64,000 nt of DNA from Oligoflexales bacterium (GCA_947494335.1 CANLUT010000003.1:261381-325380); one strand, 5' to 3'; positions 52,707 through 62,937 are shown, counted from the first letter of the stretch. The notes: generated from the sequence alone by a model not told the origin. A program made the numbers and translations.

Positions 52707-52919
52707 CCACTGGGTCGCTTCGCAGTGCCGTCGGTCAGTTTTAAGCGCCGACAGAGCCCTGCCCGCTGATTTGGTTCATATAGATAAAAATTTGGAAAAA
52801 TCCCGTCATTTCAGCGTCTGCGACGCTGTTGGCGAGGCTCCGTATTCCTTCCATTCATGATCAGACTGAAGCGGCTCGGTAAATTGCCGATGAGGATCCG
52901 CAAGCATGGATTATTTTGG

Positions 52920-54011
52920 ATGAAAATGAATATGTCTGACTCGCCATTAAAACAGAAACAGGCCGGTGTTTACATCAATGCAAACGACATTGATGTGACT
53001 GACGCTAGTCTTGATCCCACTTTAAGTAAGGTTTGGACAGATGAAACCACCGGCGAGATTGCGGTTTCGGTTGAGCGAGTTCTTTTTGACAGTTTACTGG
53101 ATGTTGCCGCCAGATATTTGGAGCCTAATGGGTTTTCTTTGAATCTAGAAAATCTATTGGCGACGATTGACAGTATGCGATTAGGAGTTTTTGCGTCTGT
53201 AGCCTCCAAAAATGGACCTGATGGCCGTGCGGTTGCGAAGAGATTGATTCCAGGTCTTTACATGCATTTGCCGCGTGTCAAAACAGTTGGCCCGACGCTA
53301 ACCCGTTTTTATGATGAAATTGGACGCTACGAACGCGAATTGGCGCGACTTCAGGATATTGAAGCGAAGGCAAGAAAAATTGCAGAGGTTTCAGCAAAAG
53401 ATGAAACAGGGCGCGCTGCCATCGAAGCTCTGCAAAGTGAAAACCAGGCCCTTCGTGCAGAGTTAGGACGACTTTCATCACGATTGAATTTGGCTGAACA
53501 AGCCCTCAAATCGTCTGCCGCAGAGACAGACGGTGATGTGATGCCAAATGGTATCCGTAGCTGCGTGATACGAGCTGTTCGCCCTGCTGAGGGGACGGTG
53601 CTGCTGAAATCTGGTGAACAACAGTTTAGCTGCCCTCTTCGACGTCTAGATGGGGTTCCATCTTTGAACGCTCGTGGCCTAGCCTATTATGAGGGCGGTG
53701 TTCTTAAATCCGTTATGATTTTCGATCCTGCACCGGCACCATTCGAGTTTCAATTGGCAGATGTCATGGCTGTGGAGGGCCGAAAGATCAAGGTTCGCTA
53801 CTCAGACCGCCGGGAAGGTTTGTTGACGATGGCTGCTGATCAAGCGGTTCCCGGCGTCGGTGTTCGAATTATTGCAAAGCTTGCGACTGGTTTTCTAGTC
53901 GACATATTACCGGTCGCCGTTGCGGGTGACAGCGTCATTGCAGATATGGTTTTTGATGAGCAAACCAAGCGTCAATTGCATGAAGAATTTGCGGAGGGTC
54001 TCAATGATTGA
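52920..54011 (+). CDS. Coiled-coil protein encoded with the MotAB-like pair
   Basis: I do not recognise this protein. From the ATG at 52920 it has 363 residues, with no signal or membrane segment. Residues of about 129-200 form a coiled coil (RYERELARLQDIEAKARKIA and SENQALRAELGRLSSRLN). The C-terminal half contains two beta-rich repeats (IRAVRPAEGTVLLKSG and DVMAVEGRKIKVRYSDRREG) that look like small barrels. The frame is open to 52857, and ATG codons at 52926 and 52932 are alternatives. It overlaps the motA start by 8 bases, which ties it to the stator. Confidence 0.75.
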   Translation: MKMNMSDSPLKQKQAGVYINANDIDVTDASLDPTLSKVWTDETTGEIAVSVERVLFDSLLDVAARYLEPNGFSLNLENLLATIDSMRLGVFASVASKNGPDGRAVAKRLIPGLYMHLPRVKTVGPTLTRFYDEIGRYERELARLQDIEAKARKIAEVSAKDETGRAAIEALQSENQALRAELGRLSSRLNLAEQALKSSAAETDGDVMPNGIRSCVIRAVRPAEGTVLLKSGEQQFSCPLRRLDGVPSLNARGLAYYEGGVLKSVMIFDPAPAPFEFQLADVMAVEGRKIKVRYSDRREGLLTMAADQAVPGVGVRIIAKLATGFLVDILPVAVAGDSVIADMVFDEQTKRQLHEEFAEGLND

Positions 54012-54783
54012 AGGCTTAAAAGAGCGCAAATACGTACAGACCGCTAAAAAGCGGACTGCGCCTATCAGTTTACTTGTGGCGACGGTTATTTTTGCTTTAG
54101 TTGTGATGGCCAGCATTGGAGTTGGTAAAGGCAAGTCCCTTGTTGATATTCGGGGCTTATTGATAGTTATCGGCGGAACTGTTGCCAGTCTGGTGTTCCA
54201 ATTTGATCTTATGGTGTTGTTGAAGAGTTTCATGATGGTAGGGCGATCATTTGCTGGTACTCCCGATCGTGAAGTTCAACGGGCGATGCGTGATATTGAC
54301 CGGGCGATAATTGAAGGACAATCACTGACGCAAATTAAGCGGTCAGATGAGCTCACCGGAGAAATATTAGCCGATGTGATCCATATGTATAATCGAGGTC
54401 TGACCTATGATGAAATCGACGCCTTTGTTACCGGTCGCGTTCAGGACGAGTATTTCGAGAGAGAAATGGCCACAGCGATGCTTCAAAAGGCATCAATTGT
54501 TGCGCCATCATTCGGCTTATTTGGAACAGTTATCGGTCTGGTTCAAGTGATGCAGTCCATGTCGTCGCCAGGTCAAATCGGTCCTGCGATGTCCTTAGCT
54601 CTCATGACAACTGCTTACGGCGCCGGACTGGCTAGTTTACTATTTACCCCGCTCGCAGGACGCCTTGAACACCATAATCATATTTACTTGGAATGTCACA
54701 AACAGCTTCTAAGTAAAATCGGTATTCTTATGAAGCGCGACGATCAAAGCTTGGAAACGGTGCGTGAGGTGGTGGCGGCGTGA
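54004..54783 (+). CDS. motA: MotA/PomA-like stator protein
   Basis: A 259-residue four-helix membrane protein of the MotA/ExbB/TolQ superfamily, closest to MotA/PomA. Helices are near ISLLVATVIFALVVMASI, LIVIGGTVASLVFQF, VAPSFGLFGTVIGLVQVMQ and PAMSLALMTTAYGAGLASLLF. The cytoplasmic part between helices 2 and 3 holds EVQRAMRDIDRAI, as in motor stators. It lacks the long C-terminal tail of ZorA. The GGAGG site lies in the previous gene. With MotB it should form a proton or sodium channel. No flagellar genes are near. Confidence 0.9.
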   Translation: MIEGLKERKYVQTAKKRTAPISLLVATVIFALVVMASIGVGKGKSLVDIRGLLIVIGGTVASLVFQFDLMVLLKSFMMVGRSFAGTPDREVQRAMRDIDRAIIEGQSLTQIKRSDELTGEILADVIHMYNRGLTYDEIDAFVTGRVQDEYFEREMATAMLQKASIVAPSFGLFGTVIGLVQVMQSMSSPGQIGPAMSLALMTTAYGAGLASLLFTPLAGRLEHHNHIYLECHKQLLSKIGILMKRDDQSLETVREVVAA

Positions 54784-55436
54784 GACTTCGTGATTTAGAA
54801 AATGCTCAAGTCAGGAGTAAAGAGTCTCCTGTGAATGCATTTTATCTGAGTTTAAGCGACCTCATGACGCTTCTTTGCGTTTTTTTTGCAGTTTTAGTGG
54901 GTATGAGTCGTGTGGATGTTGGCTCTTTTGAGAAAATGAAGACCTCTGTAACTGGTGACTCTAAAGGCACACTGGTTGAGCTGGAGCGAGACCTCAAAAG
55001 TATCGCCAAAGGCCAGAAGGGCGTATCAGTTCGACTTGGGCAGGATGGAGTTCACCTGGATTTTGAAAGTGCAGCGCTGTTCGATACTGGCTCAGCGGTT
55101 CTTCGGTCAGGAAGTCTCGATCCGGCATCACCACTGTTGAAGAGAATTCTTTCAACTAAATACGTTCTGGACATCGAAGGTCATACGGATGACGTGCCAC
55201 TTTACCGTAAAGACAAGGTGAAGGATGGTGAGGAAATCGAAACAAACTGGACGTTAAGTGGGCGTAGGGCTAGCAGTGTGGTCAACTGGCTCATCAATTT
55301 CGGATTTAGTGAGTCCCGACTGCGAATTGTCGGTTATGCGTCGACAATGCCGAAAGTTGACGTGGGAGACTTGTCGGGAAATCGTTTGGAAGGTGCACGT
55401 TCGGAGAATCGACGTGTGTCGATCTTGGTTCGATAA
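54780..55436 (+). CDS. motB: MotB-like stator protein with OmpA domain
   Basis: A 218-residue protein: one N-terminal helix with the ion-carrying aspartate (Asp27 in LSLSDLMTLLCVFFAVL) and a C-terminal OmpA-like peptidoglycan-binding domain (FDTGSAVL, LDIEGHTDDVPL, LSGRRASSVVNWLI, GARSENRRVSILV). It is shorter than flagellar MotB (about 300), with a reduced linker. It starts at GTG overlapping the motA stop. Its stop is 14 bases before the helicase gene. Confidence 0.9.
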   Translation: MRLRDLENAQVRSKESPVNAFYLSLSDLMTLLCVFFAVLVGMSRVDVGSFEKMKTSVTGDSKGTLVELERDLKSIAKGQKGVSVRLGQDGVHLDFESAALFDTGSAVLRSGSLDPASPLLKRILSTKYVLDIEGHTDDVPLYRKDKVKDGEEIETNWTLSGRRASSVVNWLINFGFSESRLRIVGYASTMPKVDVGDLSGNRLEGARSENRRVSILVR

Positions 55437-55450
55437 GGCAGGAGCTGTGA

Positions 55451-58400
55451 ATGGGTGCTGAAAGATTGCTGAAATCTGAATCGATTGAAGACGGCCTCTC
55501 GCTAAACGTTGGGCGAGGGTTTCGATTTACCCTGACCAGACAACACGATGATTCTGGATTCGAAAATTACATTATTGAGAACACCAGTAAGAAGCAGTTT
55601 CTTCGCATTCCTCGTTTTATCTTTGAAATTTTTAGATCGTCACTACAACAAGTACTTCGCTCGGATGATGCGGTAGAGGAGTCTATCAGTTTTAAAGGTA
55701 AGGTGAAGTTTCGGATTGAAGTCTTGCCGGACGGATACTCTATCACTGCCGTGGATAAGCGTGAAGGTGCAGACGGCCAGCTGACGCTCAATCGCGAGGC
55801 TGCCGAGGCTTTAGCAGGTCTTTTGCATGATCCTCGTGTTCGGCATGGAAGTGACGTTCTTAGTCGCATCTTGGCTTATCATAGATTGTTTAAATTCACG
55901 TTTGCTGAGGGAAGTGACAGCCTTAACAGTGGGCTAGCTCTGCGGTCTGATGTTCTCAGTCAGGTTGAAGACTATATTCCTCCTGTCGGGCAGCGGGCAG
56001 GACAAGTAAAGCTAAATGCAGATGATAAGGCTCTAGCTTTGAAAATTAGAAGTCACCGTCCTAGCAGTGACGATAAGCCGAAAGACCTTAAATCATTCAA
56101 AAGCCGTCTTGGTGAACGAAGTGCCGCGAAAGCTTGGGCGGTTGATTATCAAGCTTTATTTGGATCACAGGATCAGCGTTCAGCTGATCGTCAACCGAAA
56201 GTTAACACAGCTGATAGCGGACGGCGTGATGGAGCAGCCAAGCATGTTTGGGAACTCCCTATTCTTGCTTCTGAGGTTCGCTCAATGCGGGGAAAGACCT
56301 TACGATGTGAGCTTTCCGCGGAAGATGTTCATGAGATGCGGGAGACGTTTTTGACGGGAAGCGACACGGAGTTTTTTGTCGGATTTGATTTGATTGACGT
56401 GATTTTCAAAAGCTCATCCGGGAAACTCAAGACATTTAGATTTCCATTGTACTATGCGCCTGTGAGTATTTCTGAGTCGGGTCGGCAAATTCTCCTGGAT
56501 GGAGAAGCTGAATCGCGCATCTATTTAAATCATCTAGCTCTTGCGACCCTTGTGCAATCTTTTTCCGGAGAGTCCAATCTTGAAGCGGCTGTAGATCAAT
56601 TTTTCCGGACTATTTTGTCCCAGCGTATTGATCATGATGGACGCGTGGGACGTATATATTTATCAAGACAGTTGCCAGTCGCTGACGAAATATTTCATCG
56701 TACGCGTGAGATTATTCTTGGTAATCCAGGTGAAAACGGCAAAGGCGGCCTTCTGTCATCAATGAATATTGTCGGGGCAGAGTGCGACACGGAACGCGTT
56801 TGTGTGTACAAGGCGTCTAAGATTGTGGGCCCTCTGCAGCGATCGCTTGAGATGGATCTTGAGATGATGCAGGATCTCGCTCATCGAAGCCCTGAGAAGT
56901 TTGCGCGTACATTGCCAGGCCGTTTTCTAAGTACGACCTTTAAGGACGTGACCAAATCGGCTCGTCTGTTCTGTGATCGTTCGATGACACCAGTTTTCCG
57001 TCCGCAGAGTACTCGGAAGTTGATGGATCGCCTCAATGCTCATGATGTCGTTTTGCTGGAAGGGCCACCGGGAACTGGTAAAACTTTCACAATTATGAAC
57101 CTTCTTATTCACGCCGTATGCACTGGCCAAAGGGTTTTGATTGTCAGTGACGCTGATGCGGCGCTGCACGCTCTCAACGAGAAGATTCTCGAGTATCTTG
57201 AATCAGGAGCTCATGATCATGGAAGTGACCCCGTTGCGATCTGGAAGCGGGCTGTTCAGATGGTTGATAAGCTGGCGGGTGGTCATTCTGATTTAAGTGT
57301 ATGGTGCCGCACTATCGAGACATCATTGGGTTTAGCCGATAATCGCGAGTTTACGGGCCAAGCAGCAGTGAAAGCAGTCGACCCAAAGGTTATTGAATCA
57401 ATAGATCATGAAATTCAACGTGTGAAAGCCATGATTGCTAAGGTGATGGATGCTCGTATTGGGCCAAAGACCGATTTGCGGCGTCGCGTCAGTCCTAAGC
57501 GAGGGCATGCCACAACGGTGGATGATATCCAGGCCTTTGTATCCTTTTTGAAGTTTATGGGTGGGCGCAGTGAGACGACCAAATCTTCGAAATTAGCACG
57601 GATCATGGTCCGAGATTTTGTACTAGGACGAGAGTATCTCAGCCAAGCAAAAGACAAGGATATGTACGAGATCTTTGCGATACCGGACCGAGTCACTTCG
57701 GATCATATTGATTATATTGAGCAGGCTTTGAAAACAGTTAAGAAACTGCTCGTCTTAAAACCAAAATCCATGGATGAGCTGACAAAGGTGATCGGTTCTC
57801 CTTCAGATAGCCGCGTAAATCGACACCTGTTTGATATTTGGTCGAAGATTTTTCCAATTGGCGATAGTGGGCTTAAGCAGGCTATCCGTATGGTCAAGAG
57901 TATCATTCGCTTCCCGGGCAAATCCCATTTACGAAAGCTGGAATCACTGCTGTCGTCACAGCTAAAGATACTGAGGGCTTTTGATGCGTTTGAGAAGGGC
58001 GTGTGGCGTCAACTACAAATTATTCATGAGGCACTAGGTCCGTCTTTTAGAGGTGCAGTTCCTCTGTCGTTAGAGGTCTGCAGATTTGCCACCTCGTCAA
58101 GTTTTACCTTTGGGCATGCCGTGGATAGCATGCCAAGTGTTCAAGAGCTTCTTGAGCAACTCCAAGATTTGGATCGTCGAAGATCAGAAGAAGTGCGTAA
58201 AACATTTATAGCGAAATTGGCGGCTATCGTTTCTTCAGCTCATGCATCGAAGCAAGGGCAGAGTAATGCCCTCACGGTTATAGGGGGAATGCTGCATGGC
58301 TTGAAAGGGCAAGCATCTCTTGATGCCTCCAGCGGTTCTTGGCGTGAATTACAGGAGAAACTGATCAGTACGTTTCCTGTCTGGATGTGTCGTAAGCAAG

Positions 58401-59737
58401 CTGTTTCGTTCTTATTTCCTTGTAAGGCTAAGCTCTTTGATCTTGTGATAGTGGATGAAGCGACCCAGTGCCGCGTCGACGATGCCCTGCCATTGATGCT
58501 GAGGGCCCGCAAGTTTATGGTTGTTGGAGACGACAAGCAGACAGTTTTGGCCAAAAATAGTGTAATCGATGATTACTTGTTCACAGAATTTAATTTGGAC
58601 GAGCATTTACGCGGCACCCAGGCTCGCGGAATTAAGGGTGGTGGCAGCCATATCTTTGGGCTTGTGAAAGGGATTAAGGAAGCAAGTGTCATGCTTGATG
58701 AGCATTACCGTTGTCCGCCCGATATCATCGAGTATTCAAATCGATATGTCTATAATAGCGAGTTGAAGGTGATGCAGTGGCGTCGTGCTGGTGAACCTCG
58801 AGCGATGACGATTGACTGGTCAGAACGGGGTAAGTCCGATAGTCAACGTCTCGAGACTGGTCAGTATAAAGGTATCGAGACAGATATGGTGGATCGCTAT
58901 CTCGACTGGGTGGCTAACAAAATTAAAGAGATTGAAAAGGAGACCGGACGCCGAATCAATATGGAGACGGATGTCGCGCTTGTGTACTTCCTACTTAAAA
59001 ATGAACCATATATCAGATCAAAGAAATCTGCCTTCTTGGAAAAACTGGGTCGCGGGACGGATGTACTAGATGGTGCGGGCGCAGCACTTCAGGGCAAGGA
59101 GCGCCCCTATATTTTTTATCTTTGGGACATCAATCGTGGAAACATGATGGCCTTTCGGCATGGGGACGATCCTGATAAGCGTAAAGGTGAATTAAACGTT
59201 TTGATGAGTCGTCCCAAACGTAGAGCCTATCATTACTTGCATAAGAGATTTGACGAATTAGACCATGAGCGTGCAAGTATCTCTGACTTCCTGTGGCGCG
59301 CATGGCGTAAGCAGGACGAGGGAGAGCAGAAGAAAGAGTTTGTTGAGCGAACCAGGGCACCTGGCCCTGAATTCTTTCCTTGGCGTCGATCATCAGGGCA
59401 GCTGATGATTGCCGTGCTGGATCATGTGTTAAAGAAGTCGGCTGTTCAACTGGATCAATCTCGTATTCAGACAGGTGTTGTAGTCGGGGATCCGCGCTTT
59501 AAAATAGATGTTGTCGTTGGCCCGAAAGACTCGCGCCATTCAAGTATCGGCCTTGTAGATCTCTGTGGGTTTGACTGGCATGAGCGTTGTGCAGACGATA
59601 TCGTGGACTATTATTTCCAGCTCTGCCGCGCTGAGCCAAAAATTAAGCCAATTTTTCTCTTTATCCACGAGATCGCAGATCAACGATCTCGGGGGTTTAG
59701 CCGTCTCATGCATTGGGCCTTTGGCCAAAAAAATTAA
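55451..59737 (+). CDS. Large SF1 (Upf1-like, DUF4011-type) helicase with Vsr-like C-terminus
   Basis: A 1428-residue protein. Residues of about 320-380 (FRFPLYYAPVSISESG then LDGEAESRIYLNHLAL) resemble the N-terminal module of DUF4011 helicases. The helicase core has Walker A EGPPGTGKT (Lys544), DEATQ (1002-1006), GDDKQ (1026-1030), DEHYRCP and the motif VI-like GELNVLMSRPKRR. More than 450 residues separate Walker A and B. The last 100 residues (FKIDVVVG, LVDLCGFDWHERC) resemble a Vsr/PD-(D/E)XK nuclease with a changed active site. It follows motB by 14 bases. Helicases of this type occur in anti-phage defence, for example Hhe. Confidence 0.82.
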   Translation: MGAERLLKSESIEDGLSLNVGRGFRFTLTRQHDDSGFENYIIENTSKKQFLRIPRFIFEIFRSSLQQVLRSDDAVEESISFKGKVKFRIEVLPDGYSITAVDKREGADGQLTLNREAAEALAGLLHDPRVRHGSDVLSRILAYHRLFKFTFAEGSDSLNSGLALRSDVLSQVEDYIPPVGQRAGQVKLNADDKALALKIRSHRPSSDDKPKDLKSFKSRLGERSAAKAWAVDYQALFGSQDQRSADRQPKVNTADSGRRDGAAKHVWELPILASEVRSMRGKTLRCELSAEDVHEMRETFLTGSDTEFFVGFDLIDVIFKSSSGKLKTFRFPLYYAPVSISESGRQILLDGEAESRIYLNHLALATLVQSFSGESNLEAAVDQFFRTILSQRIDHDGRVGRIYLSRQLPVADEIFHRTREIILGNPGENGKGGLLSSMNIVGAECDTERVCVYKASKIVGPLQRSLEMDLEMMQDLAHRSPEKFARTLPGRFLSTTFKDVTKSARLFCDRSMTPVFRPQSTRKLMDRLNAHDVVLLEGPPGTGKTFTIMNLLIHAVCTGQRVLIVSDADAALHALNEKILEYLESGAHDHGSDPVAIWKRAVQMVDKLAGGHSDLSVWCRTIETSLGLADNREFTGQAAVKAVDPKVIESIDHEIQRVKAMIAKVMDARIGPKTDLRRRVSPKRGHATTVDDIQAFVSFLKFMGGRSETTKSSKLARIMVRDFVLGREYLSQAKDKDMYEIFAIPDRVTSDHIDYIEQALKTVKKLLVLKPKSMDELTKVIGSPSDSRVNRHLFDIWSKIFPIGDSGLKQAIRMVKSIIRFPGKSHLRKLESLLSSQLKILRAFDAFEKGVWRQLQIIHEALGPSFRGAVPLSLEVCRFATSSSFTFGHAVDSMPSVQELLEQLQDLDRRRSEEVRKTFIAKLAAIVSSAHASKQGQSNALTVIGGMLHGLKGQASLDASSGSWRELQEKLISTFPVWMCRKQAVSFLFPCKAKLFDLVIVDEATQCRVDDALPLMLRARKFMVVGDDKQTVLAKNSVIDDYLFTEFNLDEHLRGTQARGIKGGGSHIFGLVKGIKEASVMLDEHYRCPPDIIEYSNRYVYNSELKVMQWRRAGEPRAMTIDWSERGKSDSQRLETGQYKGIETDMVDRYLDWVANKIKEIEKETGRRINMETDVALVYFLLKNEPYIRSKKSAFLEKLGRGTDVLDGAGAALQGKERPYIFYLWDINRGNMMAFRHGDDPDKRKGELNVLMSRPKRRAYHYLHKRFDELDHERASISDFLWRAWRKQDEGEQKKEFVERTRAPGPEFFPWRRSSGQLMIAVLDHVLKKSAVQLDQSRIQTGVVVGDPRFKIDVVVGPKDSRHSSIGLVDLCGFDWHERCADDIVDYYFQLCRAEPKIKPIFLFIHEIADQRSRGFSRLMHWAFGQKN

Positions 59738-59889: not shown

Positions 59890-60480
59890 ATGAGAATGTT
59901 CCCTCGGATTTTGTTGTGTTCTGTATTGGCCTCTAGTTTAACCCTCGTATCCTGTGGATCCCGCGACGACGGCAGTATGCTTGCCGGTGATCGTAACAGC
60001 AAAGATGATCAAAGATCTGAAGAAGGCAATGATCACAACGACTCTGGAAAGGCGAAAGGCCGTTTTCCAAAGGCTCCCCACAAAGAGATGACCCCTGGCT
60101 CGCTATGCGAGAAAGGGAACAAAACCCGTTACCCAGAAAAAGTAAAGTACTGTGAGCGTGATGTTAACACTGAGACAAAGCGCCAAATTTTCGTAACCTA
60201 CGATAAAGAGTTTGGTTACCAGACCACCCAGATGGAGCGTAGTAGCTTCAAGATCGATCACCTTGTTCCGTTATGCTTGGGTGGAAGTAACGAGATTGAT
60301 AATCTCTGGCCGCAGCACGTCAGTGTCTATGAAAATACTGACCCGCTGGAGCCATTCTTGTGTGAGGTTTTGTCAGCTGGCCGCATTAAGCAGGCAGAAG
60401 CTGTTGAGCTGATTTTAACGATCAAAGAAGATCCTGAAACTGCTCCGGATGAGCTTCGTAAGCTAGAATCCCGCTTCTAA
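59890..60480 (+). CDS. HNH nuclease lipoprotein
   Basis: A 196-residue protein with a lipoprotein signal (SLTLVSCGS) and a charged, probably flexible linker to about residue 65. The HNH fold is shown by SSFKIDHLVPLCLGGSNEID followed by NLWPQ, the DHxxPLxxGGxNxxxNLWPQ-type motif with metal-binding residues. A disulfide between CEKGNKTRYP and YCERDV is likely. It probably degrades DNA at the cell surface or in the periplasm. A GAGTGAGAG element precedes the ATG. It ends at a clear terminator. Confidence 0.83.
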   Translation: MRMFPRILLCSVLASSLTLVSCGSRDDGSMLAGDRNSKDDQRSEEGNDHNDSGKAKGRFPKAPHKEMTPGSLCEKGNKTRYPEKVKYCERDVNTETKRQIFVTYDKEFGYQTTQMERSSFKIDHLVPLCLGGSNEIDNLWPQHVSVYENTDPLEPFLCEVLSAGRIKQAEAVELILTIKEDPETAPDELRKLESRF

Positions 60481-60496: not shown

Positions 60497-60545
60497 GACG
60501 TCAGACTTTGTCCCTATTGACGGGAAGTCTGGCGTTGTTTTTTTC
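60497..60545 (+). terminator. Intrinsic terminator after the HNH nuclease gene
   Basis: ACGTCAGACTT (60498-60508) pairs with AAGTCTGGCGT (60525-60535, one G-T pair), and GTTTTTTTC follows on the plus strand. The gene on the other strand ends at 60544. Confidence 0.88.
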
Positions 60546-62757
60546 ATTGAAGCGTTGCATCGCAGCTGTTAGTTCCGCCAGGTCCACTAACCTGAAAACT
60601 GACGTTCGTGGTTTCCGACGCTTTGCATGGCAGCTCTGGCCAAGACTGAGCCTCATTTAGATGAAAAGCCCGCTCCGATGTCAGTGCATAGCCCGACTCT
60701 GTTGACGTAAATTTGCTGATCCACCATTTTCCCGAGGCCGTCATCCCTAGTAGTTCAGGTTTGCCGTCGCCATCCATATCCAGATTGGTGACATTCTTCC
60801 AATTTATCTGCGATGCCCAAGCACCAAAAATCTGATCGCTGTTGGATAAACCGAGGGATGAGCCAAGTTTGATGTACCATTTGGCAGTGGCTTGGATCCT
60901 ACCGATGATATCTGCATAACCATCTCCGGTAAAATCAGCGGATAGAATATCAACATAGTTTTGTGATGGACTCCAGGTCCCTGATAATTGGATTTTAAAC
61001 GAAAGCGCTTTGGGGCGGGCCAGTAGCAAGAACCACTCGCCTGTGATTGCCGAGCGTCCTACGATATCGATTTTGCCATCACCGTTAAAATCCTGGGCGT
61101 GAATATTCACCCAGGGTTTTTTTGCTTGTGGCCAGGCCCCCCAAACTTTCGGAGCCGCGACACTTTGATCAGGGCGTACGAGTGTCACCACCCATTGTCC
61201 CAGCTCATTAAGTTCCGCTTTATCAATGGTCTTGTCTCCGTTGAAGTCTGCATTCAGTTTGGTTGAGTTTGCATTTGGATTAGCCATCGTGAAAATCTTT
61301 GAGCTTTCTCCGTCCCATGCAATGGCCTGTCCTTGAAATTCAAAGTTATCAATTGGTCCCGAGCTCTTATCCCTCTTCAGGGACACCAGACAGCGCTCTG
61401 TTTGAGCAATTCGCCTGATTTCAATGAGGCATTTTGGGGCGATGACACCTGGGATAGGTGCGCTTTCGCAAGATACTCCTTCGCTAGACGAACCTTGCAG
61501 AGACGCTGACATGACCGTGGGGGTATTCGATTTACATGTAGCTATCGTTTCCCAGAGGTCAAGTTTCGCAGTCCAAGGGCTAATCAAGGTAGCACTTGTT
61601 TTCGGAGTACCGATGACTTTATCCCCTGATCCTTTTACGGTCACGCTGCACTTTCCGCCCTCATCAACTCGCGTTGCTGCGATCGAACAATGGGGGCGAG
61701 CGTGGCCTGCATATTCATAGGGACCAAATCTAAGCTGATATTTAGGATCGGTATCGCCAAAGCCAGAAATGATTCTTTGAATGTCAGCAGCATAATTGGC
61801 CGTTCGTGTTCCTTCGCCTGGGCCGCCCATTGTTACTTGACTCAGTAGATAGGGTGAAATGCCATTTTCATCCCTATAGATGGCAATAGACGGGGACGAT
61901 GAGTCGCCAGGAATCATATTTTCATAAAATTTGGCGTAGGTTTTAAGTAGTTCGGAATCTAATGATCCAAAGACTGGATTCCAAAATCTGGCATTCCTGT
62001 CACTAAGCCTCCCGGGAGCTGCCAAAACAAGCAGTGCTTTGGAATCCTGATCTATGCGAAGAACAGGGCATTCAACCACCGGCAGATTTGCGTAAACGAG
62101 ATCGTCAGGTTTTACGAGCTTCATCGGCGTGATGCTTCCCGGTAAATCTTGATCAAGTCTGACAACGGTGATGTCAACACCGTAATCGGAGGGGTCATCA
62201 TTACCGACGTATCTTAATCCAGAAACCCTGCGTTCAATCAGACGATTGTCTGGGGTGAGAAAGCGCACAGTTCCTCCAACCGAGGGATGATAGCCATAAT
62301 GCTTGATGTAAAGAACATGTTTCGGAGTAATAGCAACGCCACGCGGTCCGTTGAATATGTGCGTGACTGCCGCAAGATTAAGGCCATGTATCCAGCTTGA
62401 AGTAAGGTGTTTTGAGGTGTCGCGCCATACTTTTGATGTTTCAGGATTGGCCTGCGCTATTCTTTGATTGATTTCAGAAGAACAGCGCTCATACCAAGTG
62501 GTATTTGCTGATGTCGATGAAGCCGACAGATTCATCTTATCGGTGGCGATGGAATCCTTCTGCTCGGCCTCAGACGGGCTCTTCATCGTTGGCGGAAAGG
62601 TGTGATGATCGACACAGCCGACTTCCGGTCGGTCCTGGCAGAAATATTTTCCTTCGTTATGCGGCTGAGCATCTGATTTTGTCGGGCTCAACCTAGATCC
62701 TGACTGCTTACATGACGCAAGGACGCTGATAAAAATAAAAAGAATTTTAAATTTCAC
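60544..62757 (-). CDS. Trypsin-like lipoprotein with FG-GAP/VCBS repeats
   Basis: A lipoprotein (VLASC lipobox) started at GTG 62757 with AGGA upstream. Residues of about 80-320 look like a trypsin-type fold: GVAITPKHVLYIKHYG (histidine), YGVDITVVRLD (aspartate) and IPGDSSSPSI (serine; compare GDSGGP). The C-terminal third has repeats of calcium-loop FG-GAP type: LNADFNGDKTIDKAEL, IHAQDFNGDGKIDIVGRS, LSADFTGDGYADIIGR, LDMDGDGKPELLGM. Together they suggest an exported protease with an adhesive propeller. It is 737 residues long and ends at the HNH terminator. Confidence 0.78.
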   Translation of the reverse strand: MKFKILFIFISVLASCKQSGSRLSPTKSDAQPHNEGKYFCQDRPEVGCVDHHTFPPTMKSPSEAEQKDSIATDKMNLSASSTSANTTWYERCSSEINQRIAQANPETSKVWRDTSKHLTSSWIHGLNLAAVTHIFNGPRGVAITPKHVLYIKHYGYHPSVGGTVRFLTPDNRLIERRVSGLRYVGNDDPSDYGVDITVVRLDQDLPGSITPMKLVKPDDLVYANLPVVECPVLRIDQDSKALLVLAAPGRLSDRNARFWNPVFGSLDSELLKTYAKFYENMIPGDSSSPSIAIYRDENGISPYLLSQVTMGGPGEGTRTANYAADIQRIISGFGDTDPKYQLRFGPYEYAGHARPHCSIAATRVDEGGKCSVTVKGSGDKVIGTPKTSATLISPWTAKLDLWETIATCKSNTPTVMSASLQGSSSEGVSCESAPIPGVIAPKCLIEIRRIAQTERCLVSLKRDKSSGPIDNFEFQGQAIAWDGESSKIFTMANPNANSTKLNADFNGDKTIDKAELNELGQWVVTLVRPDQSVAAPKVWGAWPQAKKPWVNIHAQDFNGDGKIDIVGRSAITGEWFLLLARPKALSFKIQLSGTWSPSQNYVDILSADFTGDGYADIIGRIQATAKWYIKLGSSLGLSNSDQIFGAWASQINWKNVTNLDMDGDGKPELLGMTASGKWWISKFTSTESGYALTSERAFHLNEAQSWPELPCKASETTNVSFQVSGPGGTNSCDATLQ

Positions 62758-62937
62758 GTGATTCGTCCTGCAGAATGCTGTCCAACTTAATCTGAGCTGA
62801 TTATGTTGGTTTTGGCGCCGATTGGCGATTTCCAAGCCATTTGATTGACGTTAGAATTTTAGCATGGCACGGGGAAATAAGGTAAAATAAAGGCGTGGAT
62901 TCTGTTTTTTTGTGCTCATTTCAAAGGAAATTTTTAG

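Follow-up and report, generated by a model that had tools for sequence, protein, structure and literature searches.

In the 64,000-nucleotide stretch of an Oligoflexales bacterium genome analysed here (GCA_947494335.1, CANLUT010000003.1:261381-325380; hereafter the window), positions 52920-59737 hold four plus-strand genes, encoding in order a coiled-coil protein (P1), a MotA-like protein, a MotB-like protein and a large helicase. Open reading frame (ORF) calls reproduced exactly the arrangement given in the initial annotation of this DNA: an 8-base overlap between the P1 and MotA genes, a 4-base overlap between the MotA and MotB genes, and a 14-base gap in front of the helicase gene. The P1 frame stops at 54011 and has candidate starts at 52857, 52920 and 52932, the last of which is favoured by the homologues. 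The identities first proposed for the other three products, namely, MotA-like, MotB-like and a 1428-residue superfamily 1 (SF1) helicase, were supported by Pfam, with matches to MotA_ExbB (E 5e-19), to MotB_plug (2e-7) plus OmpA (1e-11), and to AAA_11/AAA_12, respectively.

The order P1-MotA-MotB-helicase was observed in every locus with sufficient contig, comprising 16 complete cassettes and, with about six copies cut by contig ends, showing no exception. Counting the cut copies, about 22 loci in three phyla show the arrangement, indicating that the gene order is not due to chance; the four genes form a real cassette. P1 homologues were detected in 14 of the 43 genomes of the order in a search with P1 alone, and a profile search identified the cassette in 15 of the 58 genomes of the class (the search of the phylum covered the same 58 genomes), so that the recurrence looked for on the basis of the initial annotation was found both within the class and in other phyla. 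Using a helicase profile against 84,980 species genomes, we identified at least five full-strength orthologues outside the class among the matches listed: two metagenome-assembled genomes (MAGs) of Gammaproteobacteria, one of Cellvibrionaceae, one of Myxococcales and one labelled Bacteroides. All orthologues above 700 bits with sufficient contig carried P1-MotA-MotB upstream. The other 75 helicases among the matches listed scored 115 bits or less, and none had a MotA neighbour; a true orthologue standing alone, unlinked to motAB, was not present among these matches, and the tie between stator and helicase on which the initial annotation depended was thus upheld. A second Myxococcota genome also contained the full cassette. 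The cassette is rare in these groups. Within the order to which the gammaproteobacterial carrier belongs, 2 of 41 genomes had it; for the class of this carrier the figure was 1 of 369, and for Myxococcota 2 of 195. The copy labelled Bacteroides (L056) clusters with those from Gammaproteobacteria, and the adjoining LigA looks, in our judgement, proteobacterial; this copy was treated as mis-binned, and Bacteroidota was not counted as a host phylum.

The trees of the stator and P1 agreed with the helicase tree at all well-supported nodes, and the gammaproteobacterial and myxobacterial copies branched no more deeply than did copies from separate families within the class, which fits rare transfer of the cassette as a unit. 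Nonsynonymous divergence was low, with synonymous sites near saturation, indicating that strong purifying selection keeps the cassette proteins. All six genomes of the genus carry the cassette and, where the contig shows it, in the same neighbourhood, with pseudouridine synthase and asparaginase genes upstream or an HNH-like lipoprotein gene downstream. The sister genus keeps the upstream neighbours, with other genes at the cassette site and the cassette absent there; outside the genus, the cassette lies in unrelated gene contexts. One copy (G034, L028:4400-8658) has its helicase split by a frameshift into two overlapping ORFs, which may be an assembly error, and contains an extra 211-amino acid (aa) gene, without a Pfam match, that overlaps the helicase stop codon.

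Table 1. Features of the stator-helicase cassette, in window coordinates. AF2, AlphaFold2; pLDDT, predicted local distance difference test score; TM, transmembrane
Feature	Position	Strand	Basis
P1, putative soluble adaptor, 359 aa	52932..54011	+	Alignments, AF2 model (pLDDT 79), weak Foldseek matches, no consistent TM helix
Coiled coil of P1, aa 121-194	53292..53513	+	AF2 model, helices 121-156 and 158-194
MotA/PomA-type stator A subunit, 259 aa, without C-terminal tail	54004..54783	+	Pfam, profile, alignment, tree
MotB-type stator B subunit, 218 aa, GTG start, one TM helix with invariant Asp27, linker of 34-38 aa, OmpA-type peptidoglycan-binding domain	54780..55436	+	Pfam, alignments
Codon of the invariant channel aspartate, MotB Asp27	54858..54860	+	Aligned with the TM aspartate of E. 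coli MotB
UPF1/SMUBP2-like SF1 helicase, 1428 aa	55451..59737	+	Pfam, profiles, solved-structure matches
Helicase Walker A EGPPGTGKT, aa 537-545	57059..57085	+	Invariant across all homologues
Helicase motif II DEA, aa 1002-1004, within VDEATQC / VDEAGQC	58454..58462	+	Homologue alignment
Helicase C-terminal domain, aa ~1315-1428, predicted PD-(D/E)XK-like	59393..59734	+	Alignment and predicted fold

The stator proteins retain intact ion-channel residues. Against solved structures, the cassette MotA profile matched PomA at 95 bits (5e-26) and TolQ at 19 bits, and its positions 20-224 were collinear with PomA 3-207. The MotA channel residues equivalent to P173, T209 and P222 were invariant, as was the MotB aspartate. 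The MotB linker is short compared with the 52 aa of E. coli MotB in the same alignment, and a long plug region is absent. The MotA charges that contact FliG (R90 and E98 in E. coli) were conserved neither in the cassettes nor in the other MotA proteins of this genome. A second MotA/MotB-like pair in the same genome (L005, C1:125809-126132) is the closest paralogue there of the cassette stator (91 bits); its MotB linker is similarly short (30 aa), and the pair lies near a ClpS-like gene with no obvious flagellar gene beside it.

Compared with the flagellar stators MotAB/PomAB/MotPS/MotCD (FIT, TGI4 subgroup of PMC12505986), the cassette stator shares the PomA-collinear MotA and the conserved channel prolines, threonine and aspartate, but differs in its linkage to a helicase, its presence without FliG and its short MotB linker. 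As first annotated, no flagellar gene adjoins the cassette. In a FliG_C search of the class, 11 of the 15 carriers, including this genome, had a strong FliG, whereas G023 gave no FliG_C match at all, and G024, G025 and G026 gave weak matches only, which were not taken as FliG; among the MAGs outside the class, no FliG was found in G058 (gammaproteobacterial) and G062. These carriers are draft genomes, in which each single absence is soft, but they span two families of the class and another phylum. The cassette is therefore independent of flagella, and a role as a flagellar part was rejected on the basis of the FliG-negative carriers in the class and G058; nor is it a core flagellar or gliding locus of all relatives, being carried by 15 of 58 class genomes, with no recognisable FliG in four of the carriers. 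If the cassette stator served flagellar or gliding motility as an accessory and were co-transcribed with the helicase by chance, this would agree with the nearest relatives of the MotA and MotB proteins (flagellar PomA/MotP/MotD) and with the FliG of most class carriers. This explanation conflicts with the carriers without recognisable FliG, with the strict linkage to helicase and P1 across phyla, and with a MotB linker below the E. coli plug-linker (a criterion from PMC12505986), and we regard it as very improbable. The presence of flagellar-type stators in genomes without a recognisable rotor bears on the view of this stator group as strictly flagellar (PMC12505986).

In the helicase, the SF1 core is split by a long insert, and Walker A, motif II and the SF1 motifs that follow are all intact. 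Among solved structures, this core was closest to SMUBP2/IGHMBP2, UPF1 and DNA2, which differ from the cassette protein in being eukaryotic, in lacking a stator and in their flanking domains. The N-terminal 530 aa gave no Pfam match beyond noise in 16 homologues, and the DUF4011 assignment of the initial annotation was not confirmed, as no such domain was detectable by Pfam. A very large UPF1-like SF1 core with a long insert is also found in the anti-phage helicases Hhe, ProA and PDC-S37; the cassette helicase matched these and their relatives at about 1e-15 to 1e-23, far below the family cut-offs, and differs from them in the absence of DUF4011, in an N-terminal region without a Pfam family and in being always tied to a stator. 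For the C-terminal 110 residues, an alpha-beta3-alpha-beta topology was predicted (pLDDT 84), with invariant D1353, D1370, Q1390 and R1393. A Vsr-like end had been proposed here, but no Vsr family match was obtained, and the predicted topology suggests only a restriction-endonuclease-like domain.

P1 belongs to no Pfam family. Its predicted structure consists of an alpha/beta N-terminal domain (aa 1-112), the coiled coil, and two five-strand barrels (aa 208-265 and 272-327), in agreement with the coiled coil and two beta-rich repeats read earlier from the sequence. In Foldseek, the model gave weak matches (E about 1e-3) to the oligonucleotide/oligosaccharide-binding (OB) domains of EF-P and to the region of Mpa/ARC ATPases that combines a coiled coil with an OB fold. 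Invariant residues in the alignments were G67..N71-x-E73-N74, together with P114, G120, Y127 and E129, and no consistent transmembrane helix was found among the homologues. Among the four proteins, conservation is lowest in P1, with a mean identity of 0.29 compared with 0.43-0.54 for the others, as would be expected of a sensor or adaptor. Most likely, P1 would act as a soluble adaptor between stator and helicase.

Zorya systems (types I-III; ZorAB with ZorCD, ZorE or ZorFG) are similar to the cassette in having a MotAB-like stator with a short, peptidoglycan-binding B subunit, in being encoded together with DNA-acting proteins and in not needing a flagellum. Zorya provides the precedent for a stator that is bound to peptidoglycan and directs effectors acting on DNA (PMC11890865). 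Types I and II require the ZorA tail, and ZorF and ZorG are carried by type III (PMC11890865, PMC8565338). The initial annotation suggested a new type within this group, and in the sense of membership this was not supported. The cassette MotA gave no match to the ZorA models of PADLOC/NCBIfam, its profile detected no solved ZorA chain up to E=10, and the ZorA_1 family gave no cassette hit in any of the genomes. The class has ZorA-like proteins of its own (445-578 aa), which scored about 0 bits with the cassette MotA profile, compared with 71-91 bits for the other MotA proteins of the same genome, and which split off in the tree with 97/95 support, although its fine structure is unsafe owing to long branches. 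The cassette MotA proteins are 257-307 aa long in all copies and lack a C-terminal tail, as the initial annotation had pointed out. By these comparisons, the cassette stator belongs with PomA/MotP/MotA and not with ZorA. MotB has the features of a ZorB, namely, one transmembrane helix bearing an acidic residue and a peptidoglycan-binding domain, and matched ZorB models at 2e-12, but flagellar MotD scored higher (99 vs 45 bits). Neither the helicase nor P1 matched the PADLOC models of ZorC/ZorD, ZorE or ZorF/ZorG. Zorya membership was thus rejected on the A subunit, which has neither ZorA similarity nor a tail, and on the effector, a UPF1-like SF1 helicase instead of a SNF2 helicase, an HNH nuclease or ZorF/G; a further difference is the soluble coiled-coil/OB protein that opens the operon.

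A highly diverged true Zorya type, in which the ZorA tail was split off as P1, would share the logic of a stator beside a nucleic-acid helicase, and the ZorB matches of MotB and the coiled coil of P1 could be read in this way. The preference of the MotA profile for the other MotA proteins of the genome, the silence of every ZorA model and structure, the higher score of MotD and the absence of ZorA similarity in P1 all argue against it, leaving it a slim chance. Given a MotA unlike ZorA, the missing tail and a UPF1-like helicase without DUF4011, the plan appears to resemble Zorya but to be built independently on a stator of flagellar lineage. By plan, then, the cassette is a stator-plus-effector system like Zorya, while by descent and parts it is not Zorya; the encoding of a separate coiled-coil protein and the distinctness of the stator-helicase cassette from flagella were both as anticipated. 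No description of this operon was found in the literature searched. Elsewhere in the class, genes for tailed ZorA-like proteins followed by ZorB-like genes were observed at L154 (G007), L155 (G004) and L156 (G014), and no known Zorya effector was identified beside these three pairs; G007 has the stator-helicase cassette in addition to its pair.

Based on these parts, we propose an ion-driven motor of the flagellar (PomA/MotP) lineage, in which MotA and MotB would assemble 5:2 and rotate as expected from the family, and which MotB would anchor to peptidoglycan. P1 would take the position held elsewhere by FliG or the ZorA tail, binding MotA at its rotating cytoplasmic face, and relay the state of the motor to the UPF1-like helicase with its restriction-endonuclease-like C-terminal domain; the helicase would then act on nucleic acid close to the membrane. 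MotB would sense disturbances of the envelope, for instance on phage penetration, ion flow would then rotate MotA, and P1 and the helicase would be engaged against incoming DNA or RNA. We give this whole chain, from motor through P1 and helicase to defence, about an even chance.

The strict linkage across three phyla, the agreeing trees and the invariant channel and helicase residues count in favour of this reading, as do the low nonsynonymous divergence, the carriers without recognisable FliG, the weak conservation of P1 and the likeness of the helicase core to the defence helicases ProA and Hhe. For defence in particular, the patchy spread across phyla, the absence at the sister-genus site and the parallel with Zorya were counted. 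A number of observations weigh on the other side. The proximity to other defence genes that might have been expected was not found: the flanks consist mostly of housekeeping genes, or of a Tad pilus locus in G038, and, of 108 flanking ORFs, no more than 2 were traceable to PADLOC models, one through a generic SNF2 match. Searches of the viral contig, phage and plasmid collections, in each of which only one or two of the four cassette proteins served as queries, gave no copy. In the genus, the cassette stays at a single fixed site, and its base composition is local. The likeness of the helicase to defence helicases appears limited to the generic SF1 core. The lysine expected at D1370+2, the canonical catalytic lysine of PD-(D/E)XK, was missing in all homologues aligned, and the nuclease activity of the C-terminal domain is therefore uncertain; the best Foldseek matches of its fold were not significant, and included Card1, TnsA and a VRR-NUC domain, which we take to be nuclease-fold proteins sharing the restriction-endonuclease fold. 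Taken as a whole, the gene context is more of an argument against defence than in its favour.

The stability of the site within the genus, the strong purifying selection, the housekeeping flanks and the scarcity of mobile-element or defence-island signal would suit a housekeeping machine without a defence role, in which the ion-driven stator pulls or positions the helicase at the envelope, for example in DNA uptake, chromosome handling or membrane-near RNA turnover. Such a machine is difficult to reconcile with the very patchy occurrence elsewhere (2/195 and 1/369 genomes) and the absence of the cassette from the same site in the sister genus, and linkage to competence or replication genes was not noticed in the flanks; we consider it rather unlikely. 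Defence remains the leading guess as to purpose, at about an even chance. More tentatively, and at somewhat less than an even chance, the cassette may represent a second, independent invention of stator-powered immunity, in which a flagellar-lineage ion motor, uncoupled from motility, is connected with a UPF1-like helicase through an adaptor that is a soluble protein of its own, such that envelope damage leads to rotation and then to action on nucleic acid. To our knowledge, the principal case so far in which a proton-driven rotary motor directs a defence protein that acts on DNA is Zorya. The cassette appears to reach a similar plan from a different motor lineage and, because its adaptor is encoded as a separate soluble protein, would be more accessible to genetic and structural tests of how rotation reaches the effector.

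In the window, the cassette is preceded by a pseudouridine synthase gene and followed by a gene for a small HNH-like predicted lipoprotein (59890-60480, 196 aa, weak HNH nuclease match), which several members of the genus retain downstream of the cassette; neither immediate flanking gene is flagellar or an obvious defence gene. The SNF2 gene beside the G025 copy matches the ZorD and DpdE models, and probably encodes a housekeeping SNF2 ATPase. A match to the PADLOC candidate defence model PDC-S05 (5e-84; L027:3938-4537) lies just downstream of the G037 cassette on the opposite strand. In G038 (L026:7194-17751), a Tad/Flp pilus cluster (RcpC, T2SSE and T2SSF) is located directly 3' of the cassette in the same direction. 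Further downstream in the window, the minus strand at 60544-62835 encodes a 763-aa protein with FG-GAP repeats and a lipoprotein-like start, whose match to a TcdB middle-region model is confined to the repeat part.

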